A stretch of 64,000 nucleotides of DNA from Tricholoma matsutake (taxonomy: Eukaryota > Basidiomycota > Agaricomycetes > Agaricales > Tricholomataceae): NCBI GenBank assembly GCA_026075535.2, contig AP026542.1, positions 12,710,001-12,774,000 on the forward strand. Reading direction: 5' to 3'. The stretch's first letter is position 1. Every line of letters begins with the position of its first letter. The notes beneath the pieces are model-generated. The model made no database searches, was not told where the DNA came from, and worked only from the letters and a program-made list of their open reading frames with translations. Positions 24,160 to 60,240 of the stretch are shown here, one piece after another. Made by a program: the position numbers and the translations under genes.

Positions 24160-24250
24160 GGGCCCAAATGCCATACATTGGTGTTTGGGCCCAGGTAAGT
24201 TTGTTTTCTTTTGTTCTTCTTTTTACTAACCACTTTGCATTCATTTTTAG
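24160..24250 (+). repeat. hairpin/intron cassette, copy 1
   Basis: Hairpin GGGCCCAAA ... TTTGGGCCC (24160-24192), then AG and a 56-nt intron-like segment (24195-24250) with donor GTAAGT, branch TTTACTAAC and acceptor TTTTTAG/GTTATAG. Confidence 0.6.
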
Positions 24251-24381
24251 GTTATAGTCATCTTGTAACAACAGGCCCAACTCTGCTACACCACCCTATG
24301 CACCGCTGTGAGCCCCTGCTTGCAGGGTGGATGGCAGGGTGACGACCAATGGCCGCAAACAAAGCCTCTCAGAAGCAATGC

Positions 24382-24459
24382 GGGCCAAATGACAATTGCA
24401 TTGTTTGGGCCCTAGGTATGTTTTTCTTGGTTTGTTTCATGTTTTTATCAACTAACTAG
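24382..24459 (+). repeat. hairpin/intron cassette, copy 2
   Basis: Hairpin GGGCCAAATG ... TTGTTTGGGCCC (24382-24412), followed by donor GTATGT (24416) and a CAACTAACTAG stretch. The acceptor is less certain than in the other copies because the branch-like CTAAC lies too near the first AG. Confidence 0.45.
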
Positions 24460-24940
24460 GGTTTTATTTCGAATTTTTACGATGGAATCTAGTGATAACA
24501 ATGGACACCAACAGGTGACAAACCATGCCCACCCTCCCCATCCAACCAGGATGTGAGGCCATGTGGTGGGGTTAGGAAGGCACAGAGGGATTCTGGGAGA
24601 CCCCTAGAGGAGGATACCCAACAGGTAAGCACCCCCTACCCATGCCACATCGCTAACCCCCCCTAACCCTGCTCACCTAGGACCTACCACCACCACCACC
24701 AGAGCCGATAATGCACCCCTGCCATGCCTATGAGCCACTGCTTGTAGGGTGGATCGCGGGTGTTGGCAGCCAACAATGAGGGACAACACAAACAGGCCCA
24801 ACACAACACAACATGAACAAGCCCAACACAACAAGGAGACGATCGGTGAGGGGACTGGCAGGGCAGCAAACACCACCACAATGGCATGGCGAGGACAGGG
24901 ATGGGGATGGGATGACAATGACAATGATGACAGGAGGTGT

Positions 24941-25017
24941 GCCCAAGAGATGTCAATGTCTCTTGGGCTGTACATATATTCTTTTTCTTCTTTATTCTTA
25001 CTAACTAATGTTTTTAG
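24941..25017 (+). repeat. hairpin/intron cassette, copy 3, with compensatory hairpin
   Basis: Hairpin GCCCAAGAGA ... TCTCTTGGGC (24941-24968): the arms differ from the other copies but still pair perfectly. Then a 48-nt intron-like segment with donor GTACAT, branch CTTACTAACTAA and acceptor TTTTTAG/GTTCTAATT. Confidence 0.55.
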
Positions 25018-25230
25018 GTTCTAATTAAGACTGGGATGATGTTGCGACTGCCACCCCCCTCTCGCTCGCAAATGCGAGTGGGGTTCTTAGTATAATAAAT
25101 AGCTATTAATGTAATTGAATTATGATATAATGTATATATACTTGGGGGTTGTATGAAACCCATGTGGGTACAGGTATGGGTAGAGCTCTGCATACCTGTG
25201 GGAGTACCCGTGCTATTGCCTACCCCAGTC

Positions 25231-25621
25231 CTAGCACCTCAGATGACATGCCCCAGGCAATCACTCCCCCTTCCAATTCCCCAAATTGTTTAGGACCACA
25301 GGACCTTCTTCAACCTCTTCTCTCATTCACTTGAGTTGTTTGCTCTGTATGACTATTAACTGCCTGGCCATTAGATGGCAGGCACAATTTGGACAGTGTA
25401 GACATTAGTGATCACTATTGCTGGTATCTTTAGCTGAACCCTTTGTGTATCTTCTGTAGCCCTCTGTGGGGCAGGCAAGGAATTTGATTTTGATTTTTAA
25501 GTCTGTGAGGACTCATGCCAGTGAGGAATTCTCTAAGTCATGAGGTATTCACCTTTAGCCAGGCACATGTGCCCCATTGCATTTATGTAGCTGGTTAGAG
25601 CTTTTACTCCCCTCTCGGTAC
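25231..25621. other. spacer between hAT-like element and element G
   Basis: Continuation of the sequence into which the hAT-like element inserted. Short frames only, and no repeat termini until the LTR at 25622. Confidence 0.35.
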
Positions 25622-26075
25622 TGTAAGGGGACGAGGGGGGACGAGGGGGGGTGCCCTGTGTATTTCTCCTATTTTTTATGTTTGTCCAATGTATTTTTCC
25701 TCACTTCATTTCCTTCTATTCTTCATTTTCTATGATTTTTCTTTATTAAACACTAATTTCCCTTTCTATCACATTTGTGCATGTTGACAGTTTTATATTT
25801 AGAAGTGGAGTACCCCTTCTGACATCTACCCCTGGGTATGATGTCATTCAGTGGCCTTGATCTGCCTATTTCTGCCTATTTCTATTTTTAGACTATTATT
25901 CGATTTTTGCAATCTTCACATATACTGGGCATTGGTAAAGGGGTCCTTAGAGTTTTCTTTTCAGATTTCTCTTTACTAGGTGTGCCTCCACTCCCTGTAA
26001 TATGTACCATAATTTCAACTTCGGATTTCCCTTTGCTAGTCCATTAATTAAGTGGCTTCTAAGGTTGCCCTTATA
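25622..26075 (+). mobile_element. 5' LTR of Gypsy element G (family A)
   Basis: Starts TGTAAGGGGACGAGG and ends AAGGTTGCCCTTATA, collinear with the LTRs of elements A and E. The 5 bases before it are GGTAC. A gag frame starts inside and continues out of it. No matching 3' LTR is in the window, because its gag fuses to element B at about 26938. Confidence 0.75.
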
Positions 26076-26106
26076 GTAGAAAACTCTCTCCTAAGGCCTG
26101 AAATCA

Positions 26107-26938
26107 TGAATGTGCTGCCCAGGATAGGCAGGTACAGAGTGGATGACACTTCCCAAAGCTCCATAGACTCCATACACACTGTTCCCAACAGTCCTGCCTT
26201 CAGTGTGCCACCATTTTCGCTTAATGTGCCCCCTAGCGCCATGGACACATCAGAGTGCCTCAACGTGCTTGAAAGCGACATTACCAGAATACGAACACAA
26301 TTTGATTTGCTTAAATCTATAATCAAAAACTTTGTCAGAACCCTTCAGACTAGCTCCACAACCAATATTCCCCCATTGTGACTCCAAGCACACCCAACAG
26401 CAACACACCACCTAACACACCCACTAAGGAGTGTGCCCAGATCAAACTGTCCCCCCTGCTGAATTTAATGGTGTGCATGCACAGGGGGATGCATTCCTTA
26501 ATTCCTGTCAGTTGTACATCAGTCTCCAGTCACATCAATTTGTTGACGATGCTGCAAAAATTTATTGTGCCTTCACATACATGAAATCTGAACACAACTA
26601 TCTCTATGTGGACCATATTCTGCACCAAATGAAAGAGCTTGGTTCTCTACCTTTCTCCACTTGGGGTGACTTTCGAGCAGAGTTTGTATGCCACTTTTGT
26701 CCCCTCAACGAGTGCCACCGAGCAGTGACACAGCTCAAGTCATCCTCTTACCATCAGGCATGTCAATCTGTGGATGATTATATTGATGAGTTTAAGGATT
26801 TGGTGGACATGGCAGGATATGGGAGTGGGCTGCCAGTTGTGGTAAAGTTCTGACAGGGCCTCAATCAAGAGATTCAGGACCAGATTGCACAGATGTTGGA
26901 AGGGCACCCAGCAGACAATGACATCTATGCTTGGTATG
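26107..26938 (+). pseudogene. Gypsy gag of element G (family A)
   Basis: Frames MNVLPRIGRYRVDDTSQSS, then AFLNSCQLYISLQSHQFVDD to WGDFRAEFVCHFCPLNECH, QSVDDYIDEFKDLVDMAGYG and LEGHPADNDIYAWYE. It aligns throughout with element A gag (18011-19170) and keeps the QSVDDY region open where A has a stop. It is broken by a shift near 26380-26430 and a TGA after VVVKF. At YAWYE it switches to a different gag (element B) without a stop. Confidence 0.7.
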
Positions 26939-27831
26939 AATTGTCACAACCTCACCTCAACAATTTCTCACTCTTTTGTCAACACTTTAAATCTCACTTT
27001 GGAAATCCCAATGTGGCTTCAGAAGCTACTAGGAGGATAGAATTCAGGATCTCAAACAAACTGGTTCTGCGGCTGCATCCTCTGCTCATTTTCATGAGCT
27101 CATTGTCCATGTCAAATGGAACGATGAGGTCAAGATTCATTTTTTTTATCAGAACCTCAAAACATCAGTCAAAGATATGATAGTGAACACAAAGGTTAAC
27201 AATCACCCTACTGACTTCGAACAGTACTCTGACTGGGTTATCAATGTTGACAATCATATCCACAACTGCAATCTCAAATGCAAAGCTGAAATGAAGTCCA
27301 CAAATCAAAAATCCACCTCTTCCTACAACAATTCCACCCCTCATCACTCATCGGTCCTACTATATTTTTTAAAATGAAAGACCAGCAACTGGACTGCAAA
27401 GACTGGTCCATAAATAGACCTCTGGTCTGGTCTTTTCCAGTCCAATTCAGTCCAGTTTGAGTCTTTTTTTTGGTCCTATAGACTGGACCTGCAAACACTA
27501 CCCATCAAACACATACCAGAGTGCATGCTGATCATTCTCACTCTTTGAACAGTGTTTACTCATCCACTCCTTCCTATGTACCTCCTCCTCCTTCAATATC
27601 TTCCACTCTACCTCCTGGCAAACCTATGGAGATTGATGCCAGCAAGACTGGCAAATTCTCTAAGCCTCATGGTCCTCTGACTACTGAGGAAAAAGAGGGC
27701 CAATGCAAGAATAAGCTTTGCATGTACTGCAGAGGTAGAAACCATTTTGCTGACAGCTGCCCTAACATGTCTAAAGTGGCAAAGAAACACCTTGTGGCTT
27801 TGAAGGCTTCTTCCCAATTGGGAAAAGCCTA
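26939..27831 (+). pseudogene. gag of Gypsy element B with CCHC knuckle
   Basis: Begins mid-domain with QPHLNNFSLFCQHFKSHFG, the capsid-like segment common in fungal Gypsy gag, then after a frameshift near 27040 FHELIVHVKWNDEVKIHFF and DMIVNTKVNNHPTDFEQYSD. The zinc knuckle CMYCRGRNHFADSC (about 27720-27765) is intact. A truncated hAT-like fragment (27358-27500) splits the Ser/Asn-rich linker. The true 5' part and 5' LTR of B are missing and replaced by element G's. Confidence 0.7.
27358..27500. mobile_element. truncated member of the TAGTGTTT hAT-like family
   Basis: Right end GGACCTGCAAACACTA matches the terminal repeat of the elements at 57620-58469 and 52319-54050, and about 140 bp are collinear with the reverse complement of 57620-57770. 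The left end is lost. It sits in the linker of element B gag. Confidence 0.6.
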
Positions 27832-28070
27832 ACTGAAGGTACCGCCATCCCAGGGCTTTCAGTTGATGTTGGGACACATCCTTCTGCTCCTTCTCGAGAG
27901 ATGGAGCCCCAATTTGTCCAAACTATGGTGAATCATTTGTTTCTAATTTCTCTTGTCTCACTGCTCCTGCTTTTATTTTTGCTTCTTCATCTTATTTATT
28001 CTCTTCAAACCATTTTTTCATCTCTGTTAAACTTTCATTTCCTAATTGTGCTCCCATTTGGACATACACC

Positions 28071-28520
28071 ATGATTGATTCTGGCACCACTGCTTCATGT
28101 ATCTTGGACTCTTTTGCTACTCGACATGGGTTATCTAGGCATCTAAATGACATTCCTGTTCCCATCATGGTGGTTGATGACTGTCCCATTGCATCTGAAT
28201 TGATCACCCAAGATGTTCTTACTAACATTTCTATTGGTTCTCATTCTGAAACTCAGGCACTTGCTGTCGTAGCTGTCAGTTACCTGCTTATTTTGGGACT
28301 TGACTGGCTGCAGCATCACAACCCACATATTTATTGGGCTGAGTCTCATCTCATGCTCAAATGCTGTGGTTCTCATGCCAAACCTACTATGGTGTATGCA
28401 AAGGGCTCCAGTCATGCGGTGCAGCCTTACTTGTCTGTGCATTCTTTTGCAAGTGTTGGTTTAGGCTTTGGTCTATCTAGCCCTCTTTTGTCTCCTTTGC
28501 ATTCTTCAGGAACTGGTTAA
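28071..28520 (+). pseudogene. aspartic protease of element B
   Basis: The frame opens with MIDSGTTASCILDSFATRHG, the D-S/T-G active site of retroelement proteases, and later has LLILGLDWLQHHNPHIYW, the conserved ILG.DWL..hNP.IDW segment where protease meets RT. Active-site residues are kept. A Ser/Leu-rich tail follows to the stop. It is out of frame with both gag and RT. Confidence 0.7.
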
Positions 28521-28778
28521 TCTCCACCTATGTTTCCTTCAGAATCTCCTACACACAAATCTACTGCACCCACAACTTCATTCCTCTCAGTTTTTGTTGC
28601 ATTGAATAGCTACAAAGCCCCCTGACCCACCTTCTACACCTAATGTGAAGGTGATCAGTGCTCTACAATTCTTCCATTCAAATAAAAATAATGGAGAAGT
28701 TTGCTTGTTATGTTTTCATGATTCCTCATCCCAGTTTGCATCAATTCTTTTCACTCTGACTCAACTACTCCTGATGGA

Positions 28779-30796
28779 TTGTCTGATGCCTTTTCTCTAC
28801 CCAAGAATGCTCACTCTGATTCCACTGATGATTATCATTCTTCTGTTCCACAGAAATATTGGCCTTGGGCAGACACTGTTTTCAACGCATCCAAATTTGA
28901 AAAGCTCCCTGAACATCATTCCTATGACATTGACATTGAGCTTGAAGAAGGGAAAGCACCTCCTTTCAGTCCAATCTATTGTCTCACACCTGTTGAATGC
29001 AAAGCCATTGCTGAGTATGTCAGCTCAAATCTCAGGCACAGCCATATTCATTGTTCCACATATTTGGCTGGAGCCCCAGTTCTTTTTACTTGCAAGAAGA
29101 CTGGAGATATTCGACTTTGTGTCGATTTTCATGGCCTCAATGCCATCACACATAAAAATTGGTATCCACTTCCTCTCATTAATGATCTTCTCAATCAAGT
29201 TCACCGCTGTAAAATTCTTACAGTCATTGATCTCAAATCCACTTACAGCCATCTTTGCATACATGAAGGTGACGAGTGGAAAACTGCTTTTTGAACACAC
29301 CTTGGTCTTTTTGAACATCTTATAGTTCCTTATGGTCTTACTAATGCCCCTGCTGCTTGGCCATCATTTATTCAGGATGTCCTTCAGGACCTACTGGATA
29401 TTGTTTGTGTTGTCTATCTTGATGATATTTTAATTTTTTTCAAAGCACAGAAAGAGCATGATATCTATGTTGGCATGGTCCTTGACTGCCTTCGAGATGC
29501 TCATCTCTGTGCTAATGCTGCTAAGTGCGAGTTTGACCACACTGAAGTAGAGTACTTGGGTTACATCATTAGTGCTGATGGCATTAAAATGAACCTCAAG
29601 AAACTTCAAACTATTTCTGATTGGCCTGAACCAACAAAGGTCAAAGAACTTCAATCTTTTCTTGGTTTTGCCAATTTTTATCATCATTTCATTGACGGTT
29701 TCTCTCATTTAATTCTCCCACTTATGGACCTAACCAAAAAATTCTCTCCTTGGAATTTTTCTGATGCTGCTCAAGATGCATTTCATGTGTTGAAAGCAAC
29801 ATTTACTTCTCCTCTTGTTCTGGTCCATTTCAATCCCCTTGCACCTTGTACAGTTGCTACTGATGCCTCTGATTTTGCCATCTCTGGTGTACTCCAACAA
29901 CCAGATGGTGAAGGTCACCTGCATCCCATTGCCTTCTACTCTCAGAAACTCTCCCCAAGTGAAATCAATTATGACATTCACAATAAAGAACTCCTTGGAG
30001 TGATCGACTCTTTTCATGACATGCATGCTTGGTTACTTGGGTCTCTGTTTCCCATTTCAGTCATTTGCGACCACAAAAATCTCAGGTATTTCATGACTTC
30101 CCAACTTCTTAATCATCATCAAGCCCATTGGGCTATGTGTCTTTCTGACTTTGATTTTCGTCTCGAGTGGGGTCTGGGTCATCAAAATGTTGTGGATGCT
30201 CCTTCTCGACACCCAGATTTCATCCCTCAAAGGGGGGATGAGCACCTTGAAGCTAAGCGACAGGTGTTACTCACTCCAAAACACACCCAAAATCTTTTTC
30301 CCTCTGAAAACATTCCCAAATCTACTAACCCAACTTTTAATGGGTTTACCACTCTTTCTATTGACAATTCTGGTCTCCTCGAGCATTTCAAAACTGCTTT
30401 TCAAGAGGATACAGAATGGCATAAAGCTCTCATAGCTGGGGACTCCAATTTCACCACAGAAGGCAGTCTTGTATTTCATTCTGGTCATCTTTATGTTCCT
30501 CCATCTATGCATGCTAACATTTTTGCTTCTCAACATGACACTGTAATTGGTGGTCACCCTGGGCATAATAGGACTTTTGGATCTGTGTCTCATGACTACT
30601 CATGGCCCAGCATGAACACTTATGTTTGGCACTATGTAGAGGCATGTCCCACTTGTCCTAGGATTAAAACTCCTTGCCACAAACCTTTTGGTCTTCTCCA
30701 ACCACTTGATATACCTGCTCAGCCTTGGCCATCCATCTCTATGGATTTTATTGTCAAACTTCCAACATCTCATTGTTACAACTCAATTTGGGTCAT
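28779..30796 (+). pseudogene. RT, RNase H and integrase N-half of element B
   Basis: RT has FEKLPEHHSYDIDIELEEGK, VLFTCKKTGDIRLCVDF, ILTVIDLKSTYSHL and VVYLDDILIF, so its catalytic Asp residues are intact. One TGA (29292-29294) replaces the Arg of AFRTHLG. The long frame 29475-31019 continues with thumb, RNase H (VATDASDFAISGVL, NKELLGVIDSF, CDHKNLRYF) and the integrase zinc finger (HDTVIGGHPGH, CPTCPRIK). It reaches SISMDFIVKLPTS, the first core Asp, then WVIV, where element C enters at 30797. The integrase resumes at 49570. Apart from that insertion this is the best preserved pol in the window. Confidence 0.85.
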
Positions 30797-31504
30797 TGTC
30801 AAGAACCGTTCCTTGCCCGATTGGAACCCACATCCACCTGACCCTTTTCTGCACCTCGAACCCAACATTCGTCAACTCCTCCCACTTTCATTCCCAGCTG
30901 CCTTGCACTGCCCACACTGCTGTGCTCCAGGCCACCTTGTACAGCAACCATGGCCACCTTCCCAAGGCTGCCATCCCTTTTGCAAATTTGACTACAGATT
31001 CCTGTGTTGCTCCCGCTAGGTAATTTATCTATGCAGTCGAGACACTCCTGCAGCCTCCGCTTCTGTTCCACCTTTATTCCAGACTACAGTATTTAAGCTT
31101 AGTTAGTTTCACCTTGTATCCCTCAGTTTGTATATCGACATAGACTTGACAAAGCCCCATCTTTAACTTGCCAATCTAAATCTTGTTCTACTCCTACCTC
31201 TGTCCTCTAAGAGTCTGAAACTTCCTTTGACTCAACCTCTAGTTCTTCCTTCCAAGCTTTGGTCTCACCTGAGCTTAACCCAAGTCCTTCTGTACATTTA
31301 CCTGCACTTCCCCACTCCTACCTCCAAACCTTTGTCTCAAAATTAGGACACCAGATGAGGTGAAGGGTGCAGCTTGTTATAAGCTGAAGCCGAGTCCTTT
31401 CTGTTCCCCTTCCCAGGACCCACTACAACCTGACAACTTTCCATTATCAACACCCACAGGGTCCGACTGGACTCCGATGTGCCTTCTAGGATCAGTTCTT
31501 AACA
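30797..31504 (+). mobile_element. 5' LTR of element C
   Basis: 708 bp, TGTCAAGAAC ... GTTCTTAACA. Matches the 3' LTR once the 1058-bp solo LTR there is removed. Contains TATTTAAGC (about 31090) as a promoter-like motif. Confidence 0.85.
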
Positions 31505-31567
31505 GTATATACGAACTCACACTTCACTCATCTCATTCCTCTCAATGACCCCTACTGAGACCCACCA

Positions 31568-32880
31568 GTGCACAACCAGAAATTCCCAATGCGCCAGTAC
31601 TATTCCTGGAATCTCTGCAATTCAGCGATCCACCCTTCCCAACCCTCGACCTGCCACTACTTTCAGAGTATCTTCCAGACCCTCAAACATTTTCCAACAA
31701 ATCAGCTCAGGAGCCCCTCAATCAGTGCTAATCTCATGTCCACCCATGCCCCGCACCCTTCTGCTGACCTGGAATGTTTTCGATCAAGAACTCCCCTTGA
31801 GTATGTAGGTGGCATCAACCAGCCTGAACACTTCAGGTTGGAAGATCCTGGTCTAGAGGATGGACCTCCCAGCAGACCTGATGACCCTAGTGGTCCCAAT
31901 GGCCCTGGGGGTGACCCCGATCCCAATGATCCAGATGATCAACCTCCCACGGTGGAAAACCCTGATCCAGGGGACAGGTTCATAGATGTCCTTTACAACC
32001 TCTTGGAGAGTATCCACACCCTTTGTCAGAACAATGCACCCAAGACTGAAAAAATCAAAGTTCGCGACCCTGACACTCTTGACAGTATCAACCCAAAGAA
32101 ACTTAGAGACTTTCTAGTCTCATGTAATATTCATTTCCACGACTGCCCACACATATTTTCCTCCAATGAGAAAAAGATCATATTTATCCTTTCTTATCTT
32201 AAGGGATCAGCTCTTAGTTGGTTTGAGCCTGGTCTTAATGACCTGACAGATTCTGCACACTGGATGTGGGACTATGAAGCTTTCCTTGCTGAGCTGGAAA
32301 GCAACTTCGGCCTGCACAACCCAGTCAGAGACATGGAAAAAGCTCTCTCTGACTTAGCAATGAAGAAAGGTGGTCATATCATGAAATATAATGTTGACTT
32401 TTGGGAATTAGCTTCTAGGGTCAACTGGAATGAAGCAGCCCTTTGTGATCGCTATTTCCACAGTCTTCCACTCTGACTTTGCATAGAAGTTCTCTGGGGT
32501 GGTAAACCCAATACTCTTCCAGAACTGCACTTGAAAGCGCAGGACAGTGACGACATCTATTGGATGCAAGAAGATGAATCCCGCTTTGAAACAAAGAATT
32601 CCAGTAACTTCACTAACCCTAGTCAGAAGGACACTTCCAAAAGTCCTTCCCCATCTACCAACCAATCCTCTTCGAACTCTGCCCATGGTAACACCTCCAA
32701 CCAGCAGTCTTCCATGACAAAGAACACTCCCTGGGACAAGCCGTCCACCTCCAATAAGTTGGGGAAGAACAGCAAGCTTACTGGGGAGGAACGAGAACAT
32801 CGCATGAGAGAATGACTTTGCCTCTACTGCGGTGAGGAAGGGTACATGGCAGGAAACTGCCCAAAATCCAAGGCCACAAA
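31568..32880 (+). pseudogene. gag of element C, altered zinc knuckle
   Basis: The main frame (302 aa) has a Pro/Asp-rich middle (GPGGDPDPNDPDDQPPT), then the capsid-like VRDPDTLDSINPKKLRDFL, FILSYLKGSALSWFEPGL, LAELESNFGLHNPVRDME and DRYFHSLPL. A TGA at about 32475 replaces Arg, and the frame goes on with SDDIYWMQEDESRFE, a Ser/Asn-rich stretch and, after another TGA (32813-32815), LCLYCGEEGYMAGNCPKS. This knuckle has Tyr where the zinc-binding His should be. Gag forms the particle shell. Confidence 0.75.
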
Positions 32881-32985
32881 AGACTGTGCTTCCACTGTCA
32901 TTCCAGACACTGTGGACTTGGAAAAATAGTCTGCAACCCTCAGGAAACAGCCATTGGGGCTGGGGGTTGCATTGACCTTACCCAT

Positions 32986-33225
32986 TTGGCTGCCTACATT
33001 CATCTCAATGCATCCACTCTTTCTGACCCTGACTCCCTGACCACTCTTTTAACCATTCCTGACAAATCCACTCCTGTCCAAACTCTTATTAATTCTGGTT
33101 CCTCCCATTGCTTCCTCAATTCCTCCTTTGTGTTGGATAACCAACTCAGCACAAAATCCATTAACCCAATTGGATTACGGCTCTTTGATGGATCTTGCAA
33201 CTCCACCATAACTCGAGTCATCCAG
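32986..33225 (+). pseudogene. protease N-half of element C, catalytic Asp lost
   Basis: The frame reads LTIPDKSTPVQTLINSGSSH and ..FLNSSFVLDNQL. The active site DSG has become NSG at residue 36 of the frame. It continues to TRVIQ, where element F enters (target TCCAG/TCCAA). It resumes at 43334 with LLVTFPTSEMFNLSFYV. Confidence 0.75.
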
Positions 33226-33426
33226 TGTTGTGAGTTGGAGGGGTCCTTTTACTTAAGGGTCACACAACACTAAACACAAATAACTGGTATTGTGTAAGTG
33301 TCTATGATGGTAGTAAAAAGATTTCAGATAGGTAGTAGGACTCGCGCTTATGTAGGCATGAGTCAAAGGCAATAACATGTAGATTAAACAACTATATACA
33401 TTGGGGCATTGCCCCAGATCACCACA
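33226..33426 (-). mobile_element. 3' LTR of element F
   Basis: 201 bp. In minus sense TGTGGTGATCTGGGGCAATG to CTCACAACA. Preceded by the purine tract at about 33427-33438. Near-identical to 43128-43328. Confidence 0.85.
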
Positions 33427-33517
33427 CCCTCCCCCTTAGGCTCCATCTAACAGAGAAGCATTTTTTGTTGAAGAAAAACGAGATGATCCAACTGGTTGTC
33501 AGATCGTCTAGATCAGT

Positions 33518-35975: not shown

Positions 35976-35996
35976 AGAAACTTCTAAGTTAGGTTT

Positions 35997-36194: not shown

Positions 36195-36268
36195 TTGGTG
36201 TCATCTGGGGCGCTGAAGTCATATGGGTCAGGATAATGCCTGTTGGGAAACAGAGCATCATCGTTGGC

Positions 36269-37621: not shown

Positions 37622-37657
37622 GTTGGCTGCGATTGTCTCCTGCTCTTCGATTAGTTC

Positions 37658-40169: not shown

Positions 40170-40174
40170 GACAC

Positions 40175-47650: not shown

Positions 47651-47783
47651 GACTGCTGGGGGGGAGTAGGAAACAATGTGAAAATTTTTTCAACCAACTG
47701 CCACATTCAGAAATTCAACCAACTTCCTTATTCAGACTCAAACACTCATGTGCCTCATAGGCTCGGCACTAAGGGGGATATAC

Positions 47784-49564: not shown

Positions 49565-49772
49565 GTCATTTGTGATTGGCTACCCCATGCCCACATTTCA
49601 TTCCCTGTAACAAGTCTTTATCTGCCCCAGATCTTCATAGATGTTTCTTGATTGCATTTTTCATCTTCACAGTCTTCTGAACTCAATCATTTCAGATCAT
49701 GGTTCCATTTTTGCTTCCACCTTCTGGAGAGCACTAACAAATATTTTAAATGTTGATCATACAGCTTATCAC
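49565..49772 (+). pseudogene. integrase core of element B, second part
   Basis: After the duplicated GTCAT the frame, with shifts, reads WLPHAH, FIPCNKSLSAPDLHRCFL, then LNSIISDHGSIFASTFWRAL and LNVDHTAYH. The ISDHGS segment carries the second catalytic Asp. It stops at an hAT-like insertion at 49773, before the catalytic Glu. Confidence 0.75.
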
Positions 49773-50465
49773 TAGTGTTTAAAGGTCCAGTTGGGTGGAC
49801 CGAAAAAATGACCACAACCCAACCAAACCCACTTGAATGCAACCAGACCATCAGTTGTGGTTGCCCACTTTTGTGGTCGGTTGGGTTGCTGGTTGCCTTA
49901 CTTCAAAAATATTTGAAAACTGTTAGAAAACCAGTTGCAATCAGTTGCAACTGGTCTCTTATAGTATATAATATGTACTTATAATTACATTGATAGTAAG
50001 AAAAAAGAACTAATAAAAGTACTAATTATTACTATCAATACTATGTTCACATGCAATGGGACAAGCTCAGGGGAAAAGTAGTCATTTCATGGGTGCTTAT
50101 ATACCCTGTGGCCATGCACAGACCATGTGGTCACATTTGTGCTCTCAGAAATGAAAATTGCACCACTTCCTGGATGATTTCCCATGACTACAACATCAAC
50201 ATCAACAATGCCACATCCACAAAAATGACCCACAACTGAACGAATACAAAGTAGGTGGCCCAAACAATGAATGAGTGTTGTTTGGGCCCTAGGGTACATT
50301 TTTTTATAGTTAATTTCTTCCTCTCGCTAACTAACCAACTAAGAGCCTTTTTTTTTAGGTACTTGTTAGTTTCATAACAAAATCACCCACCCCACCAACC
50401 CAAGCCCATTGCTGCCACTGTGAGCTGCTGCTCACAGGGTGGCAATGGGCCATTTCTGGACCACA
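49773..50465 (+). mobile_element. hAT-like element (TAGTGTTT family), right end lost
   Basis: Left end TAGTGTTTAAAGGTCCAGT follows CTTATCAC. About 690 bp on, element B coding sequence resumes at AFHVSLLEPYHNPS, but no right terminal repeat or second CTTATCAC is found, and roughly 250 codons of integrase are missing. It contains a hairpin/intron cassette (50256-50358) and a perfect-looking GTGAGCTGCTGCTCAC palindrome (about 50420). Confidence 0.6.
50256..50358 (+). repeat. hairpin/intron cassette, copy 4
   Basis: Hairpin GGCCCAAAC ... GTTTGGGCC (50256-50287), then an intron-like 66-nt segment (50293-50358) with donor GTACAT, CTAACTAACC branch-like sequence and acceptor TTTTTTTTTAG/GTACTTG. 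Confidence 0.5.
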
Positions 50466-50940
50466 ACAACTGCTTTCCATGTTTCTCTTCTTGAACCTTA
50501 CCACAACCCTTCTGTCTTACACTCCCATTCTGAACCTGAACCTTTTCAACTTGCCAATAACCCTGCCCTGAATATCCACTCTATTTATGATGATCACAAA
50601 ATTGGCCATTGATATGAATATTTTGTTTGTTGGAAAAACCAACCCAAATCCGAAAATTTGTGGATTCCCTTATCTGACATTCCTACCTCCCAAAATGAGC
50701 TCCTTGATCACTTCCATTGCCATCATCCTTGCGCTCCTCATCCACATACTTTAGTTCTGAACCAAGTCTTTTCTCCTTTGCCACTGACTTCTCTGACCAT
50801 TTCCCTCTACACAGATTCCATGCCCCAAGCTTCTCTACCAACACCTGACTTACTCCGTCCTCGCATCCTGCTGGCTGCCGCTCGTCCTGCCTCCTCCACT
50901 CGTATGACAGAGACAACACACTATGACCCCAAGTTACACT
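50466..50940 (+). pseudogene. integrase end and chromodomain of element B
   Basis: TAFHVSLLEPYHNPSVLHSH, then HSIYDDHKIGH, a stop, and YEYFVCWKNQPKSENLWIPL and NELLDHFHCHHP form a chromodomain with Y.VCWK and E..WIPL. The frame 50658-50942 continues for about 60 further residues (MPQASLPTPDLLRPRILLAA) to the stop, close to the purine tract. Confidence 0.75.
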
Positions 50941-50965
50941 AGCTCAATGCCCACATCTTTCCCTC

Positions 50966-50978
50966 AAAGGGGGGATAA
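50966..50978 (+). promoter_or_regulatory. polypurine tract of element B
   Basis: AAAGGGGGGATAA directly before the LTR start TGTGAGGG. It is the expected primer for plus-strand DNA synthesis. Confidence 0.65.
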
Positions 50979-51355
50979 TGTGAGGGTCATGGTCTTCAGA
51001 CCATGGACTCTTAGTTACTCATGGCCTTTCTAGTTATTCAATGCATCCTTTGTTACTCTATAGCCTTTCTTCTATATTCTATGTTCTCTCAGATGCTCTA
51101 TGGCCTTTCTTACTATGTTATGGGTACTCAGATATACTCGGTATCCTTGGCTATGTAGTTTCTGCACTATTTAGGTATGAGTTCCTGTTGTTTGTATTCC
51201 TCGTCAAATCAATGCCAGTGACTCGGACTCTCACACTCTTAGTCCTCACCTCGAGTTCTCATAACCTCATTTATTTCTTGCTGATTGGTCTTGGATGTGG
51301 CCTTGACCATCACACCATTGAAACTACTGTACCAATGCAATCAATTCATCAGGGG
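50979..51355 (+). mobile_element. 3' LTR of element B, right border unclear
   Basis: Starts TGTGAGGGTCATGGTCTTCA. A 60-bp copy of its start lies at 19551-19610 in reverse. No matching end (CCCTCACA) was found, so the border near 51355 is a guess. The 5' LTR of B is absent. Confidence 0.5.
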
Positions 51356-51953
51356 GTGTGACCTGTGACCAACCTGACGAAAAGTTATTTTCATCAGGTC
51401 ATGAAAATTTCTGTGACCTGGGTGAAAATTCAGTCAGAAACACGTCCAAATTGCCTTTTTTGAATGCTTTTGGCTCTCCTAAGTTCTATCAAGCATTTGT
51501 CATGACCCAGTGACCTGGGTGACCTGAGTCACCAATCAAATTCACACTGCCACTTCCCTTATCTGATCACTGTGACTCCCACATCCTGCTGGCACACCTG
51601 TTTTCTAATTTGTCCTCCTCCCTCATCAAATTCACGTTCCACCTCTGCTGAGCACCTGGGTCACAACTTTTCCATGCAGGATCAATCTCCTGGGTCACAA
51701 ACCTTTCCATTCCTGCTCCATTGTTGTGGACTTTCCAGCCTCAGCTTCAATCCACAGTGTGCATCCCTTGCAAGTGTGCTACATCTCAAGTACCACATTT
51801 GTGTTACTGTAAGGTTTTGTACTATCAAAATTACAATCTAACTATTACATATCTTAGATATACTTTATCTACTCATCAGTCAGGTCAGGTCAATCACATC
51901 CACAACATCTCTCTGATCAACCACACCCTCCAAACTTGAATCATACTGGTCAG
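51356..51953. other. spacer with GTGACCTGGGTGACC repeats
   Basis: Several TGACCTG / CAGGTCA units in both senses (51358-51410 and 51505-51535) suggest a degraded foldback repeat. No coding frame. The first copy of the 74-bp tandem repeat (51876-51949) lies at its end. Confidence 0.35.
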
Positions 51954-52023
51954 TCAGGTCAGGTCAATCATGTCCGCACCATCTCTCTGATCAGCCACAC
52001 CCTCCAAACTTGAATCTTCCTGC
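51876..52023. repeat. 74-bp tandem duplication at the XPG gene 3' end
   Basis: TCAGTCAGGTCAGGTCAAT starts both units (51876 and 51950) and the rest is nearly identical. The unit on the gene side encodes the last residues of the nuclease frame and its TGA, so the duplication copied the end of the reading frame into the 3' flank. Confidence 0.65.
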
Positions 52024-52786
52024 GTGAGATCAATGAAGCTGATATATTGACCCATCCACTGTGGTTGTAGAATGTAATCAGCCTGGAAGTAATATAACAT
52101 TATTTAAAATAAACTTACAATGGCTACTCTGCAAGAACATTTTGGTTTCTCCAACTTGATCATCAATGGGATGGCCACTGCTGTAAGAATTGGCTGAGGA
52201 ATCTGTACAACAATCAGCTCTGTCTCATCTGCAATCACTTCTTCATCTGTGTCTGTGTCCACGTCCCTGCAGCCCATAAGCCTAACAAAGTTGCTGGCAG
52301 AGAACTTGACATTGCTCGTAGAGTTTGAAGGTCCAGTCCCTTGGACTGAGGACCAGACTGGACCAGACTGGATTTTGAACTGGTCCAACAGGTCCAACAG
52401 GACCATCAGTCCCAGTTCAGGGTAGTCTCATAGCAGTCCAGTCCTCAGTCCTACTGATTCTCAATTTGACACAGACCGGGGGCAGACCAGTTCAGACCGG
52501 TTTGGTATTGAACTCACAGTCCAGCTATGGTATGTAATTTTATTATATAATATGCTAGGGGACAGAGGCCCAGGGGGTTACAATAGTGAAATCTTGAGGG
52601 TTTATATACAGTACACTAGTTGTGCATGTTTGTATTGTTTGCATCCATTTGTTTACAGTAAATGAACATGTGAACATGCATTATTTGCATCATGTGTGCA
52701 TGCATTTGTTTACAGTAAACAAACATGTGTTTGTTAAATGAACATGCACAAACAATGTGTTACATGGTCAATGTTAACCAACATCT

Positions 52787-52869
52787 GCCCAAATGATGTC
52801 CAGTGTTGTTTGGGCCCCAGGTATGTCTTCCTTTGTCATTTAACTATCATTTATCTTGTTTTTTCATAG
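52787..52869 (+). repeat. hairpin/intron cassette, copy 5
   Basis: Hairpin GCCCAAATGA ... GTTGTTTGGGC (52787-52815), then CCCAG and a 49-nt intron-like segment with donor GTATGT, TTTAACTATC and acceptor TTTTCATAG/GTTCTGACTGG. Confidence 0.55.
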
Positions 52870-53119
52870 GTTCTGACTGGTTATCATGCCGGTCCCACTC
52901 TCTGCCTTGCAGGGTGGATTGCAGGTACTACAAGGACAACAAACAGGAATGGCACCCACCTCCAGCCCCACGAGCCTCTGCTTGTGGAGTGGATTGTGGG
53001 TGCTAGCAAGTTGGGGTATTCAAATGGCTAATGCAGTCGACAAATGACAAATGGGAGGACATCAAAAAGGCATGCAAATGGCGAAGAGAGGGCAGGGGAT
53101 GGGAGAATGAGGTAGGGAT

Positions 53120-53680
53120 GGATGACAGCACCCACGACCACAATGACAACTACTCGACAATACAACAACAACAACTGGACAACTACAACTGGACAACTAC
53201 AACTACAACAACACCAATACCAACAATGATGACAGCAACAACAACATTGGCAACAACAACATTGGCAACACAACAAGGCAATGACAACAACAACAGCAGC
53301 AACAACAACAGCAACAACAGCAACAACCACCACCACCACTGCCCCCCAATAATGACAATGACAATGACAATGACAATGACAATGACAACAATGACAACAA
53401 TGACAACAACAACAGCAACAATGGCAATGACCACCACCACCACTGCCCCCCAATAACAACAATGACAACAATGACAATGAGACAATAACAATGCTAACGA
53501 CAATGCTAATGACAATGCTAATGACAATGCTAATGACAACAATGACAACAATGACAACAACAACAGCAACAATGGCAATGACCACCACCACCACTGCCCC
53601 CCAATAACAACAATGACAACAATGACAACAAGACAATAACAACGCTAACGACAATGCTAATGACAATGACAAAGGAGGCC
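53120..53680. repeat. ACAACA/GACAAT low-complexity tract
   Basis: Trinucleotide-like and hexanucleotide repeats (GACAATGACAATGAC, CAACAACAACAG) with a duplicated 50-60 bp block ending in CACTGCCCCCCAATAA at about 53340, 53450 and 53605. It opens long frames of single-residue runs on both strands that are not genes. Confidence 0.8.
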
Positions 53681-55545
53681 CATTTGCAACTCATGAACCA
53701 CCAAGACCATCACCATCCCCCCCTCCCTCAAAATGTGAGATGGAGGGAGTCATTTTCTTTTTTCTTTCCTTTTTCTACTAACCAAGCTTCATACATACAA
53801 TCCCCCTCCCTCGACACCCACCTCCAGCCTTGTGAGCCACTGCTTGTGGGGTGTGGGTGTTACTTAATAAATTAAATTAAATTAGTATCTATATTATTAT
53901 TTACATGTATATAGGCTGTAGACCAGTCTGAACCAGTCAATGGAATGCAAACGGGGTTCGATAGATAACTGAATAATATAGGACCAGGTTGGTCCACAGT
54001 TCGGCCTAAAAAAGCAAAAAGACTGGACCAAACTGGACTTTAAAACTCTAATTGCTCAAGGCAACCACATGCCTGGGATTGTGTCCAGTGCTTACTCTAC
54101 AATCTTTAACTTGTGTGACCATCACTTGTTTATCTGGCATGGCAAGGCATCAAGGACCAGGGTCATACAGAACAGTAGGCTGTGAAAGTCCAAACATGGT
54201 TACCATAGACAACACCTTTGAATTTGGGAGCTTACCATGCAAAACATATGAAAGCATACACTGCTCCAGAGATTAGCATGAAATCTTTTCAAGAGGTCTT
54301 TCCCTGTCATCCACCCAAGATCTTTTATCAAGAGCAAGGTGATTTCATGGATGGTGGGCTCGCATGGCTGCCAACCAGATGTATCAGGCAGAATGGAGCC
54401 AGGTGACCATGATGTAATAGGGTTTACATACAACTCTAACACTTTAGAGGAAGGAAACAAACTAGGAATTTGGACTACAAGGGTCCCATAGCAACATCCA
54501 AGGATCCCACAAGAGTCAGAGGCCAGTTCAGAACACATGTCTTCCCGCCAAGTTTTGATGAATTGCTGAAATCCTTCATCCCAATTCCCTGCCAGAGTTA
54601 CTTCAATCAACATGTCACCATATCCACACCTAGCAAGGCAATGTGCAATTTGTGCTCCAATGCCTACAACACCTTGATCATAGTCACCACTGGCGACTAG
54701 TGCAATTAAAATAGATCCACCTCACATGAGTGCCATGACATCACTGTGTTCAATGACATCAGAAGAGTAGACTTTGACTTGATCAAGGTCACAGCTCCCA
54801 GGTTTTCTAGAAAGATTACACATTGGGCAGGAATTCAAGTCCACATAACTAAGTATACTGTGACATACCTCTGAATAACATACTGAGCACCAAATGCCCA
54901 TGCATCACTATCATTGGTAATTACAGCATCAATTTGCCCCTCTGCATTGAGCTTTGCCAGCTCAGCTTCAGCTTCCCCAGATGCCTTCAACCAAAGATAT
55001 GAGTATTAGGCAACACTGGCCCATGATAATGGACCACTCACCTGGTGGAAGTAATATCCAAATGCCATGATAAGCTTCTTTGCATGCTCAGTAAGCTGGT
55101 GTGCATGATGAGTTGGCACCATTTGACCATGTTTAACAGAAGGTTGGTGAGGGCCATCAAATACAAATACTAAAGTAACTGGGCTCCTGAGGTAGTGATA
55201 CACCTTGAAAAAAAGTATTCAAAGCTCTGGATTCTCACCTGCTTGAGCTTGGAGAGTTGGGTTCTTGAAGACAGCTTCACAGCTGGCATACCAAATGCTG
55301 GAAAGATGACCAGTGTAAACACCATCTTGATTATACCCGAGCACAATCTGATGCACCTGATATCAACCCCAATGGTCAATGTACAGCTAGCTACCTTGAT
55401 GATTTTGTTGAAATCCTTCAATTGTTGTATGCTCCAAGAATGAATTTTCTTCATGGACAGCATCCAGCACCTTCAAGCAGTAGATGGTCAGTAATGAGAC
55501 ACCTAGATTTGAAGTGACAACCTCCCAAAGCCCAGTTATGCCCAT

Positions 55546-56042
55546 GTTGCCTGCAAAGTTTCATCTGAGACATTTGACTGTTTCCTACTGCTAAGAAAAC
55601 AGGAAACAAGGAAATACATCCATACATATCTGTATTGCATGTACAACCACACATACATTGTTGGTTGGCAGTGTGCATGGTCACCATACGACACTTGGCA
55701 TAGATTATCTCTCCAGCACACTACAGAGATCACACAGTAGTTTTTAAACATATGCTAGAGGCCGATAATTTTCTAGACAAATTCTTTTATTTGTAGTAAC
55801 TTATGGTTCCTACTTCCATGCAACAAAGATAATTTGATCCTGTCTTTTAGTAAACCTAAGTCTAGTGTAGGCTGCCAAACTCAGCATCCTTCCACAGCCC
55901 ATTCATATCAATGATGGTCACTCTAACACAAATCAACATTAAGGAAAGATCAAAATTCAGAGAAGAAACAGTGATACAGAGAAGGGAATATGACATAAAT
56001 ACAATGGGAAAAGGACATAGAAATACAAGTGTGGAAACATTT
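55546..56042. other. spacer between the two degraded genes
   Basis: Upstream of the XPG-type start and downstream of the 3' end of the next minus-strand gene, so it should contain the XPG promoter. The start has a favourable CAACATGG context. No other frame or repeat was recognised. Confidence 0.35.
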
Positions 56043-58997
56043 TCATGCAGCTTTCTTTTTCTTTCTTTGGGCATCCAATGGCACAGCCCATTGTTTCTTT
56101 TTCTCAACCCTGCTCGATGCAATATTCACCAGTGACAATGACAGAGCTAGCTCAGTACAGGAAGCAGCTGGAGGAAATGATGGTGGGATAAGCATGGAAG
56201 ATGTTGTGGGAGAGCAGGGTGGTTGCAGTGGTGGTGACTTTGAGGACAGATCGTTGTCAAAGTCTTTAGGTTGAGCATTTGCAAAGCGAAGCTTCTTCAC
56301 CTTGTTGTCAGAACCATGGCACATCTCCTCAAGCTCTCCAATGACAGTTGCTGGTGAAACAACTCATGCAGTTGAACACGACAGAATCCACTCAGGGATC
56401 TCACGAAAACATTCCCATTTCTTACAGTCCCAATACATCAAACAGGAACAACATGGATGGCATCAAACCAACTCACTCCTGCACTGTGGCCACACCATTT
56501 CAATTGAAAATATTGCTCGACAAGCTGAAGCAGTGGCTTAATTCCAGTTTGAGCTCTTGCCACATCAAAACAGGTTCTCCAAGGCTATAGCAGGTCCACA
56601 TTTCTTCAAAAGAATACTGGTCAAGAGATTTTGAGGGTTTCCAGCAGTCCCAGAGCAATTCTGGCCACTGCACAAGTGCAAAGACCTGATCCCATTGAAT
56701 AGACCTCTGACCAAGGATAGGCAGCCATAGAAGGCTTGGCTAACCTGGGACAAGATCAGGATGGTACATTTGAAGCTGACTATCATGCACCAAGCTTTGT
56801 GAATGCAGCAGCTGGAGGTAATACCAGGTCAACTTGTGATCTTGCTCAAGGAGTAGCAACTGTCTGGGGAGATTCATTGGCAAAGGCACAAAGTGTTGAA
56901 TCATCTGCCTGATATACACCCAGGTCATCCACCTGGAGAGGAGCACCTGGTTCATGGATTATGGCAGACAGAAGGAGCACATTGCCAGATTGTTCAATAC
57001 CCACTGCACACAAATTGTGAGCATCACAAGAAGCCAGATTTGGGGACCATTGAAACCTACCTCATTGAGAATATGTTGCTGTGGAAAATCCTTGAGTTGG
57101 AGATAGGGCTGCAGTGCACCGCTGGAACATTAGCATAAGCTTCTCTATCTGAACCTTCTGATCTTGCAGGAGGCTCCGAGTTTCCTCCAGTGCTTGCCAA
57201 AGATTCTCATTTTGAAGCTGTGCTAGATCCATGGAGCTACCGGCAGCAGCTTGCAGCACTGCAAGTTCTGACCAAAATGTCATCTTCATCCATGTCCTGA
57301 CATCTTTATTCACAAATGCAAGTAACTTGAAGAGGGCAGACTTCAGGCAAAGTTGATAGATTGCTGCTCTGCCCTAGTTCACTGTTTCAGCCATTGATGA
57401 TAAGAAAAATGATGAGACACACCTGGAAAACATATGGGCAAGTGGTCATGATCATTGACCAATACTTCACAGCACCTGTCAAGTTTTCTTCCCTAGTACA
57501 AATCTTTTGAACATCACATTTGCATTGGTAAGTAAAAAACTCACCAACAACTTCTGCATGAATACCCTCGGCCATCAGACAGACTAAGTTCAAAAACTGT
57601 TCAGGAATGTGTACATGGCTAGTGTTTAAAGGTCCAGTCCTATGAACCAGAAAAAGACTGAAACTGAACTGAACTGAACCAAAGTCTGGTTCACCAGGGG
57701 GCTATTTATAGGACCAGTCTTTTGCAGTCCAGTTGCCAGTCTTTCACTTTGAAGAATATCATTGAACCAATGAAAACCAGTTTAAACTGGTTGTACCCAG
57801 TTCATATGTTATGTGAGCTATACTCCCACATTTCCACACATAATCCCATCAATTTCACTCCCTGGATCATCGAAAACAGTTAAGAACTGAGAGAGATATG
57901 ACCAAATACATTTTGATGTGAGTATTGTGTTGTGATTTGAGTAGTTGTGATTGTACTGCTTATACCTTGTGCTACAAAAATATTGGGCACAATTGGACAT
58001 TATCCAGGGCAAAGGAGTAACATACATAAATGTTTGTACCATGTGCATTTGATTCATTTAACACCCCTGACAAGTTGTAAATACACATGACAAACTACAA
58101 ACTACAAACTGCAAACTACAACATGTAATTCAATGTACTTTTGTTCTGGTCATATCTCAGTCAGATCTTAATGAAATCTCTTAAAATTTAGACCAATCGC
58201 CGGGGAATTACAATGTCCAAGTGCCTACATAACAATTAAACTGTCCGCATAATAGTTACTGAGAAACAGGTAGGTTGTATTGGCATGACATATTTTACAA
58301 CAAAAAACTGTTTGGACCAGTTTTTTTTTCGGTCCATGGACCGATATGGACTGGTCCTATGTTGTCTGGTTGTGGTCCATCAATATATGGATTGGTCCTG
58401 GACTGGTTGTGGTTCCAGTTGCCCCATTTAGACGTAAAAAACTGGACTTAACCAGACCTTAAAACACTATACATGGTGCTATGCAGGGTCATACACTCCA
58501 CGTGACTTGTACCCATGGGCACCCAGAATCACCTGCAAAATCCAAGCCAGGCTAATGTCAAGATTATGTGATAAAACCAAATTGAACACCTGCCATCTTA
58601 GGTAGTGCTGGAGCATAAGTGTTGAAATAGGTTTCCCCTCATACCCAACCTAGTTTAGAGGTTTCTGTGGAATCAACACTGAGATTAATTTGAGTCAGCG
58701 GTGGTTGAGTGACAAACATGGAGGAATACTCACCCCATTGCTTCCTGCTTGTAGCCTAAGATGTGAGGTGGGATGTGGACCTTCATTCTTGAATCAAAGC
58801 CACCCTTGGCAAATGCTCGCACATAATGGTTGTAGAGATTTTGTTCAGCGTATGGTGTCATAGGAGATTTTGGGCCATGCAAGAATCAGATTAGTGTTGC
58901 CTTGACCAACTTGGGGCATTTTTGTATTCTTGAAGTAACTTGACACAATGGACTCAGCCTGCTTAGGACCCATCAACCTTTGGGGCTCCCTATCTAT
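56043..58997 (-). pseudogene. degraded recombinase-like family gene (K), split by hAT
   Basis: Minus-strand pieces in order: SIVSSYFKNTKMPQVGQGNT (inside the palindrome), SPMTPYAEQNLYNHYVRAFA, KVHIPPHILGYKQEAMG, an intron, ILGAHGYKSRGVYDPA, then the hAT-like element. After it come HIPEQFLNLVCLMAEGIHAE, LTGAVKYWSMIMTTCPYVFQ, DLAQLQNENLWQALEETRSL (coiled coil), LSPTQGFSTATYSQ, IKPLLQLVEQYFQLKW, REIPEWILSCSTA and ISPATVIGELEEMC-like text. From memory this order matches a multi-copy Agaricomycete family with tyrosine-recombinase/Ndc10-like (Crypton-type) features. The H..R of such enzymes would be HIPPH here, with Arg lost. I cannot verify the family. Stops and shifts are many. It could also be an unrelated host family. 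Confidence 0.45.
57620..58469. mobile_element. hAT-like element in gene K, TSD TACATGGY
   Basis: 850 bp with ends TAGTGTTTAAAGGTCCAGT and AGACCTTAAAACACTA. TACATGGC (57612-57619) and TACATGGT (58470-58477) are an 8-bp target duplication with one transition. Removing it brings GVYDPA..HHV next to HIPEQFLNLVC, so it entered an exon. No transposase frame and no hairpin/intron cassette in this shorter copy. Confidence 0.8.
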
Positions 58998-59115
58998 TCA
59001 CATAGATAGGGAGCCCCAAAGGTTGATGGGTCCTCTCTCAACACTAAGCAGGCTGAGTCCATTGTGTCAAGTTACTTCAGGAATACAAAAATGCCCCAAG
59101 TTGGTCAAGGCAACA
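58894..59115. repeat. 222-bp near-perfect palindrome from gene K sequence
   Basis: Arms 58894-58997 and 59002-59115 pair almost completely around the loop TCAC. The right arm has an 11-base extra segment (CTCTCTCAACA) and very few other differences. Each arm encodes the same stretch (SIVSSYF..TKMPQVGQGNT) outward from the centre on its own strand. It is an inverted duplication of coding sequence. Confidence 0.85.
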
Positions 59116-59389
59116 CTATGCAAGATGCAGATCTAAAATGAGAGATTGTCAGAAAATGTATCTAAAGGGACAAAGAAAGAAAGACCTGATGACAGCTATT
59201 GTTCATGGACCAGTTGATCTTCAGGGATGTCATGATATCTTTCACATCATGGAGATAATGATGATAAAAAGCAAAAGCACCAAGCAGGCACATTTCTGGC
59301 TGAAGGTGTGCAATGAAGATGGAGTAAACTGGGTTCACAACCTTCCCTTGATGTCAGCTCATTTCAAGTTGAATAAACACAAAACCTAG
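59010..59389 (+). pseudogene. N-terminal part of gene K, inverted copy
   Basis: The plus strand reads GAPKVDGSSLNTKQAESIVS and SYFRNTKMPQVGQGNTMQDA, a TGA after DLK, EIVRKCI, then after a shift LMTAIVHGPVDLQGCHDIFH, KSKSTKQAHFWLKVCNEDGV and NWVHNLPLMSAHFKLNKHKT with a stop. It continues the protein in the N-to-C sense past the point where the minus copy jumps to the later part. The two copies together look like one gene broken by inversion at the palindrome. Confidence 0.5.
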
Positions 59390-60240
59390 TCTTTGTGAGG
59401 GAGTAGATAACTAATATAGATTTAAAAAAAACCCCCATGCAAATGCAGGGGGGAGAATTAATTCTACTATTTAATTATACTATTTTAAATTCTACAAAAA
59501 AAACCCACCCCCCCATTTTGCAGGGGGGGGGGTGGTGGTGTATCATGTTGGCTGTCTTGTTTGTGTCTTGCCTCTCTCACCTCACCTCCCCCGTGGCTTC
59601 CCCCCCATCCCTCCTCTCCCCTCCCTCCTCTTCTGGTAGTCATCTCCCTTTCCCCTTGTCATTTTGTCCCCCCCCTCCTCATCACCCTCGTAGTTCATCC
59701 CCCTCATCGTCTGGACCCACAAACCACCCTATGGGCAGCTGCTCGTAGGTGTGTCATTTGGTGCCATTGTCATCCCTCCATGCTGTTCCCATGCTCTTGC
59801 ACCCCGTATGCACCCCACGAGCAGTTGCTCACCATGGTGATGGGGGGTGCTGGATGTCATGGGGGGTCCATGCACTCACAATCTACCCTACGAGCAGCAG
59901 CTCATAGGTGTGGGGTGTGTTGTCAGTTTGTCAGTGATGTGGCATGAGGGGAGGGGTCAGGTGGTGCTTACTGGGCAGGTATTCCCCTTCTGGGGTCTCC
60001 TGGTGTTGCTCCCCTCGCTCCTGACCATGATTGATACCCTCACATCCCATTTTGATGGGGAGGAGGGGGGTTGCCAGGGGCATCATTTGGTGTGGGTTTG
60101 GCACACGTCAGTCTGTCATTACTCATGTAGATTAGAACCTAGAAACAAAACAAATGAATTAGTTAGTTTACAAAAGTAAAAAACAAATGAAAAAAAAAAC
60201 TTACTATGGGCCCAAATGACAATTGCATCATTTGGGCATC
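59390..60240 (-). repeat. hairpin/intron repeat, minus orientation
   Basis: Contains an intron-like unit and hairpin (60139-60237), and three CACCCTAYGAGCAGCAGCTC-type palindromic motifs (about 59720, 59810 and 59885), as in the hAT-like elements. G-runs and C-runs (59440-59530) lie at one end. No terminal inverted repeats or target duplication could be found. Confidence 0.45.
60139..60237 (-). repeat. hairpin/intron cassette, copy 6
   Basis: On the minus strand: hairpin GCCCAAATGA ... TCATTTGGGC (60237-60208), then CCATA and a 66-nt intron-like segment (60204-60139) with donor GTAAGT, AAACTAACTAATTC branch-like sequence and acceptor TTTCTAG/GTTCTAATC. Confidence 0.55.

Follow-up and report, generated by a model that had tools for sequence, protein, structure and literature searches.

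The genome of Tricholoma matsutake contains, in many copies, a cassette in which a hairpin is directly followed by a short intron-like stretch, and this recurring layout is real and beyond chance. The cassette appears to be part of an internal body within non-autonomous DNA transposons whose ends are hAT-like. These elements have defined ends and target site duplications (TSDs) and a common body; the hairpin stems covary, and a further set of hairpins, the GAGC hairpins, bears a strand signature of RNA. Our preferred reading, which we rate at about even, is that the body may be a gene for a structured non-coding RNA that is spliced and that travels on hAT-type elements. The original prediction, made from the letters of one stretch of DNA, had proposed such a spliced non-coding RNA and is partly supported.

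The window, that is, the whole 64-kb stretch that was analyzed (C5:12710001-12774000), was predicted to hold six main places with this layout. Five of them (24159-24250, 24941-25017, 50257-50358, 52786-52869, and, on the minus strand, 60237-60139) show a hairpin, a donor, a branch-like site, and an AG, whereas the place at 24382-24459 is weaker. Four of these five hairpins fold with z scores of −3.8 to −5.2, and the one near 52.8 kb has a z score of −2.4. Three cassettes lie in element E1 (23710-25222, plus strand, end class II), which is bounded by the terminal inverted repeats (TIRs) TAGGCAATAGCATGGG and TAGGCAATAGCACGGG (15 of 16 positions matching) and by the TSD CCCCAGTC at 23702-23709 and 25223-25230. 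The first cassette combines a hairpin at 24159-24193 (plus strand; −27.4 kcal/mol, z = −4.84) with a 56-nt candidate intron at 24195-24250 (plus strand; GTAAGT..CTAAC..TAG). The second is the weaker place: its hairpin (24382-24412, plus strand) is decayed, with an imperfect stem (z = −1.24; 24 of 200 shuffles fold equally well), and the acceptor given for its candidate intron (24416-24459, plus strand) is doubtful, position 24459 lying directly on the branch-like site. The homologous acceptor, at about 24480 on the plus strand, looks mutated on reading the sequence. The third cassette was held to have different arms that still pair, and it does: its hairpin (24941-24968, plus strand; GCCCAAGAGA / TCTCTTGGGC, z = −5.16) is of a second arm type, for which the pattern CCCAAGAG..GGG followed by GTAAGT gives 628 genome matches (298 + 330; control, 0). 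A 48-nt candidate intron with donor GTACAT follows at 24970-25017 (plus strand).

The other elements of the window carry one cassette each at the predicted places. E4, on the plus strand, has a 5′ terminus of end class III at 49773-49788 (TAGTGTTTAAAGGTCC, 15 of 16), a hairpin at 50257-50288 (z = −3.86), and a 65-nt candidate intron with donor GTACAT at 50294-50358; a search for its 3′ end found none, and no TSD was found for it either. E2 (52319-54050, plus strand, end class III) is bounded by TAGAGTTTGAAGGTCC and TAGAGTTTTAAAGTCC (14 of 16) and by the TSD copies ATTGCTCG and ATTGCTCA, which differ by one mismatch, and contains a hairpin at 52786-52816 (plus strand; z = −2.36) and a 49-nt candidate intron at 52821-52869 (plus strand; GTATGT..ATAG). 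On the minus strand, E3 has a class I 5′ terminus at 60824-60842 (GAGGTCTTTACACTCCCCC, after ATTGGTTG), a hairpin at 60210-60237 (z = −3.79), and a 66-nt candidate intron at 60139-60204 (GTAAGT..CTAAC..CTAG); its 3′ end and a second TSD copy were searched for and not found. The three dissimilar end classes are thus all represented in the window, and the claim that the cassettes sit in elements with different terminal repeats is confirmed. A weaker seventh place, 7406-7346, has the intron-like stretch but lacks the hairpin. The arms, predicted at 9 to 10 bp, are 12 to 15 bp long by reading in better-kept copies elsewhere. By eye, much of the window (e.g., 28 to 31 kb and 43 to 46 kb) is filled with frames of retrotransposon type and with long repeats, both direct and inverted.

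Across the genome (161,040,721 bases, 13 contigs), the exact 3′ arm TTTGGGCCC followed by GTANGT within 8 nt occurs 1,898 times (952 + 946), against 1 + 0 for the reversed control. The palindrome GGCCCAANNGA..TCNNTTGGGCC occurs 2,303 times per strand (reversed control, 0), and GAGC hairpins were counted 2,041 times (control, 0). The association was also recovered from the intron side. When we scanned the window together with 20 evenly spaced 10-kb loci on C1 to C5, an upstream stem score of at least 8 was found at 8 of 19 strict intron-like sites, whereas the control stretches further up and further down gave 1 of 19 each. The evenly spaced loci on C1 to C5 (200 kb) contained 23 hairpins, 7 with a standard donor, and by reading about 18 of the 23 precede an intron-like stretch; extrapolation from these loci gives a copy number on the order of 10,000 cassettes genome-wide. 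Neither a known RNA family nor a tRNA gene was matched as the identity of the cassette: Rfam 15 covariance models gave 0 matches in the window and, in the loci, 37 matches at E values up to 5 in seven loci, all under the gathering score. Among the open-access papers listed by our literature searches, we found no description of such a hairpin-intron layout.

The carriers were predicted to be non-autonomous transposons, and their 8-bp TSDs and TIRs bear this out; they fit non-autonomous, hAT-like DNA transposons. The 8-bp duplications and short TIRs are in line with the hAT superfamily, a TSD of 8 nt being reported for hAT elements (PMC8903248, PMC2803484). Alignment of copies located the ends sharply: in class I, the 5′ end is GAGGTCTTTACACTCCCCC and the 3′ end, read inward, CAGTACTTTACAGTCCCCC; class II has TAGGGCAYAGCATGGG and variants, and class III has TAGTGTTTGAAGGTCC and variants. 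TIRs match at 12 to 16 of 16 positions over the three classes (only 12 of 16 in class I), two of the classes begin with TAG, and all three have 8-bp TSDs, such as GGAAGGTT (L014), TAAACTAG (L013), ATTGTTAT (L045), and ATTTTACT (L051). The duplication is perfect in L008, L010, L011, L013, L014, L019, L022, L023, L028, L036, L038, L042, L045, L051, L052, and E1 and has one mismatch in L002, L006, L007, L018, L021, and E2. It lies, with the TIRs, at the ends of elements of about 1.1 to 2.9 kb. Exact end cores number 835 (class I), 100 (class II), and 561 (class III) genome-wide, with 0 in controls.

A blind search for a TSD plus TIR succeeded at 24 of 53 cassette rows; among 60 random anchors it succeeded once, at a class III element, and among 60 shuffles never. 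Of these 24 rows, 7 belong to class I, 13 to class II, and 3 to class III, and the last is an artifact on subterminal repeats, on which some best matches at class I loci also fell. Some rows share one element or are its two strands, and 17 distinct elements (7, 7, and 3, respectively) stand behind the 23 classed rows. At the other 29 of the 53 rows the blind search found nothing, so ends are not established for every cassette. Class III ends do not need the body, as indicated by a foldback class III element of 443 bp with a perfect TSD, ATCATGCT, and no cassette (L052, C1:1201080-1201550), and by at least 15 class III end pairs 427 to 428 bp apart among the 100 places listed. Separately, L015, L016, and L017 (C1, about 0.86, 0.96, and 1.05 Mb) are near-identical stretches about 95 kb apart, which looks like tandem segmental duplication rather than transposition.

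We compared the bodies of 19 elements (8 of class I, 7 of class II, and 4 of class III). From the ends and subterminal repeats inward, one to three cassettes typically come first, with GAGC hairpins after them; a GAGC hairpin lies before or between cassettes in 4 of the 19, and module order is therefore not fixed. The first hairpin is at least 220 nt from the 5′ end, and upstream of the cassettes there is a CAC-rich leader motif in 8 of the 19 elements and a G-run/T-run in 7. BLAST matches between end classes fall on cassettes, GAGC hairpins, the leader, the TATA region, G/T stretches, and simple repeats; the ends are not matched, apart from a class II element nested in L051. Between end classes, it is the internal body that is homologous, and it is better kept than the ends. 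A regular expression for an antisense tRNA-like A-box/B-box pair matched 4 of 8 class I elements (L013, L019, L021, and L028) and 0 of 11 class II and III elements, about 260 to 380 nt from the 5′ end and upstream of the cassettes, and more degenerate pairs were seen elsewhere by eye. No part of the spliced-RNA-gene reading explains this pair.

The body might instead be a fossil: a remnant, 5′ or intergenic, of an ancient hAT gene, left behind when internal deletions gave rise to several families. The ends of these families would have diverged later, and the introns and hairpins, which had a role in the ancient gene, would now be passive. The 8-bp TSDs of all three end classes and the TAG start of two agree with this history, as do at least 151 matches to the hAT dimerization domain in the genome. 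In L041, one of the evenly spaced loci, a hAT transposase C-terminus (PF05699, 5.2e−11) is followed by an end beginning TAGTGTTT, with class III-like subterminal repeats (read by eye; one end, TSD not seen). This C-terminus is the sole candidate for an autonomous partner, and the end that follows it is class III-like, no transposase being linked to classes I and II. Two end cores lie within 2 to 3 kb of hAT matches (C1:11897128 and C5:11037810), about what chance gives by a rough hand estimate. However, the 3′ non-coding 1.36 kb of the L041 transposase element contains no cassette, simple descent predicts ends better kept than a useless interior when the reverse is observed, and pairing is maintained across subfamilies. 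We consider a fossil origin possible but improbable.

The original prediction suggested that the hairpin is kept by selection or by its mode of copying. At inner stem pairs 8 to 12 (37 hairpins, 185 cells), we counted 126 Watson-Crick and 32 G.U cells, where shuffles average 108 and 34; the Watson-Crick count was equaled or exceeded in 8 of 2,000 shuffles, the sum of the two in none. From one subfamily to another, both arms changed at pairs 7, 8, 9, and 11, with pairs 8 and 9 probably in one event. Single-copy arms, in contrast, decay independently: in the second arm family, the CpG decay of one arm is uncorrelated with that of the other (chi-square P = 0.81; 99 strings, 77 unique, 67 classified), in a genome for which CpG hypermutation has been reported (PMC6980582). 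Nor do the cassette hairpins show an excess of G.U over A.C at non-CpG cells (9 versus 11); the counts are 62 versus 41 at CpG cells and 48 versus 37 over all cells of the comparison between subfamilies. Both results count against a strong form of the original claim and come close to the outcome that was to refute it; between subfamilies the pairing is kept. Individual insertions decay as dead copies would. The independent CpG decay and the lack of a G.U excess imply that selection, if any, acts on source copies and not on each insertion.

The GAGC hairpins behave differently at non-CpG cells. Three tested pairs of their stem are Watson-Crick in 105 of 156 cells (52 unique sequences among the 100 listed), whereas 2,000 shuffles average 82 and reach at most 102. 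With orientation fixed, 63 of 65 unique sequences (2 were skipped as unpaired) gave 27 G.U versus 1 A.C at non-CpG cells on the intron-sense strand, a ratio that counts related sequences (15 arm types versus 1) and probably reflects few independent events. We use this count in place of a filtered one of 27 to 0, which is biased at pair 4. CpG cells gave 28 G.U versus 13 A.C. Retention of G.U with hardly any A.C points to RNA, and since the opposite strand would reverse the ratio, the strand with the intron signals seems to be the one on which the GAGC structure is read as RNA.

This wobble of RNA type counts against a DNA-level account, in which the hairpins would be palindromes serving as protein-binding or cruciform sites for transposition and the T-rich stretch would be no intron. 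The cassette hairpin itself is nearly symmetric and has no strand asymmetry at non-CpG cells, which fits a DNA palindrome. Yet in the copies listed the arrangement is one-sided, the T-rich stretch with its donor, branch-like site, and AG following the 3′ arm of one strand, and the 443-bp class III element has its TSD on both sides with no cassette between. We therefore regard DNA-level palindromes as unlikely.

The body was also predicted to lack any long frame, and this held: in 17 of the 19 elements, 8 or more of 100 shuffles equaled the longest spliced frame, the exceptions above 95% of shuffles being L006 and the element at 52 kb of the window, E2 (reached by 2 and 3 of 100, respectively). 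Ten frames from cassette-bearing loci, searched against Pfam, yielded one clear match, to the copia-type gag of a retrotransposon in L035; no transposase was matched. The cassette was rejected as a coding exon: some copies have an open frame running across hairpin and junction, but stops follow; hairpin length varies (30 to 34 nt in 36 of 37), as do internal exon lengths. The same frames weigh against capture and amplification of a fragment of one host locus with short introns, as in Pack-TYPE elements. Such elements exist in hAT (PMC8903248), and the layout of the body is exon-intron-like; still, a body that stands behind three end classes and has several arm types, with frames mostly no longer than those of shuffles, makes such a capture doubtful, and we give it little weight.

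Intron signals were tallied in 41 diverse cassettes, three rows of which were later dropped as antisense or chance. The best-matching donor was GTAAGT in 15 and GTATGT in 6, the distance from arm to GT was 4 nt in 29, and a CTAAC branch-like site was present in 23; these counts are optimistic because best-match sites were taken and 30 loci had been fetched by the donor pattern. By reading, many departures from the donor resemble products of CpG decay (e.g., CATAAGT from CGTAAGT). The intron-like stretch has a median length of 65 nt (42 to 98) in the 31 cassettes, of 38, where it was measurable, with the branch-like site 11 to 48 nt before its end; the other 7 of 38 lack such a site or an AG. 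At these best-match sites, donor, branch, and AG stand at the normal spacing of a U2-type spliceosomal intron. A search for a spliced (retrocopied) form with one exon-start pattern returned 0 matches, which counts against the preferred reading, although the lack of a spliced copy is expected under DNA transposition.

These signals bear on the two weakest alternatives. A GC-rich stem followed by a T-run within about 10 nt could be a transcription terminator or pause site, and other hairpins in some elements also precede T-runs, but a terminator needs neither the recurring GTAAGT between stem and T-run nor the CTAAC site nor the pyrimidine-AG, and we think it very unlikely. An introner-like mobile intron that inserts beside the hairpin, suggested by the very many similar intron-like stretches, is scarcely credible given that TSDs and TIRs bound the long elements and not the intron, that the hairpin travels with the intron, and that one exon-start pattern found no intron-less junction.

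Under the preferred reading of a non-coding RNA gene, we infer from the sequence that the body would be transcribed, spliced, and active in trans. It would be a non-coding transcription unit of short exons, each ending in a hairpin about 4 nt before a U2-type donor, which would open an intron of about 42 to 98 nt; an element would hold one to three such cassettes, with GAGC hairpins mostly downstream. Host Pol II may transcribe the body: in five class III copies (L002, L006, L051, and those at 50 and 52 kb of the window), a TATA-like box, TTATATAC, precedes the first hairpin by 159 to 183 nt, and in two class II copies (L038 and that at 24 kb of the window) one precedes a hairpin by 152 and 253 nt. 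Over all cassettes, TATATA within 500 nt is no commoner upstream (13 of 74) than downstream (14 of 74). The spliceosome would then remove the introns, and the structured RNA might act in trans at the level of source elements, possibly by serving as a silencing decoy or by binding a protein of the host or the transposase. An acting RNA would account for one body behind three dissimilar sets of ends.

The recurrence of one body behind three ends, together with its closer conservation, argues either for exchange of bodies between families or for selection on the body. A bolder version, which we offer as speculative and rather improbable, is that the body may be a selfish non-coding RNA gene, a parasite of transposons that has moved between several hAT families and is maintained because selection favors its spliced, hairpin-ended RNA, for instance by blunting RNA silencing or biasing transposition toward its carriers.

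The closest known systems share parts of this arrangement. Like non-autonomous hAT elements and hAT MITEs, the carriers have 8-bp TSDs, short TIRs, no transposase seen, and high copy number, and one end class appears, by eye, to resemble the end of an element with a hAT transposase C-terminus; unlike hAT MITEs, they have one complex body of hairpins and intron-like stretches that is common to three end classes and better kept than the ends. Pack-TYPE elements (Pack-hAT) are likewise described as non-autonomous hAT-type carriers of internal exon-intron-like sequence (PMC8903248), but here no host gene or coding frame was identified, and the cargo is structured, tandemly repeated, and present in thousands of copies. 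Introners, as described in PMC9860276, also comprise large numbers of similar short introns, and some of their families have TSDs and/or TIRs; an introner is itself the intron, whereas here the intron is a small internal part accompanied by an exonic hairpin. In the 19 elements compared, the ends of the element are not the ends of the intron.

Non-autonomous DNA transposons are usually viewed as ends with meaningless filling. The filling described here has structure, recurs between dissimilar ends, and is conserved more closely than they are. Should its RNA prove to be made and spliced, selection would be keeping a non-coding cargo in a transposon, and thousands of natural variants would be available to test how an exonic hairpin adjoining a 5′ splice site works. 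For T. matsutake itself, cassette-bearing elements may account for part of the 25.4% of the genome reported as unclassified repeats (PMC10211490).
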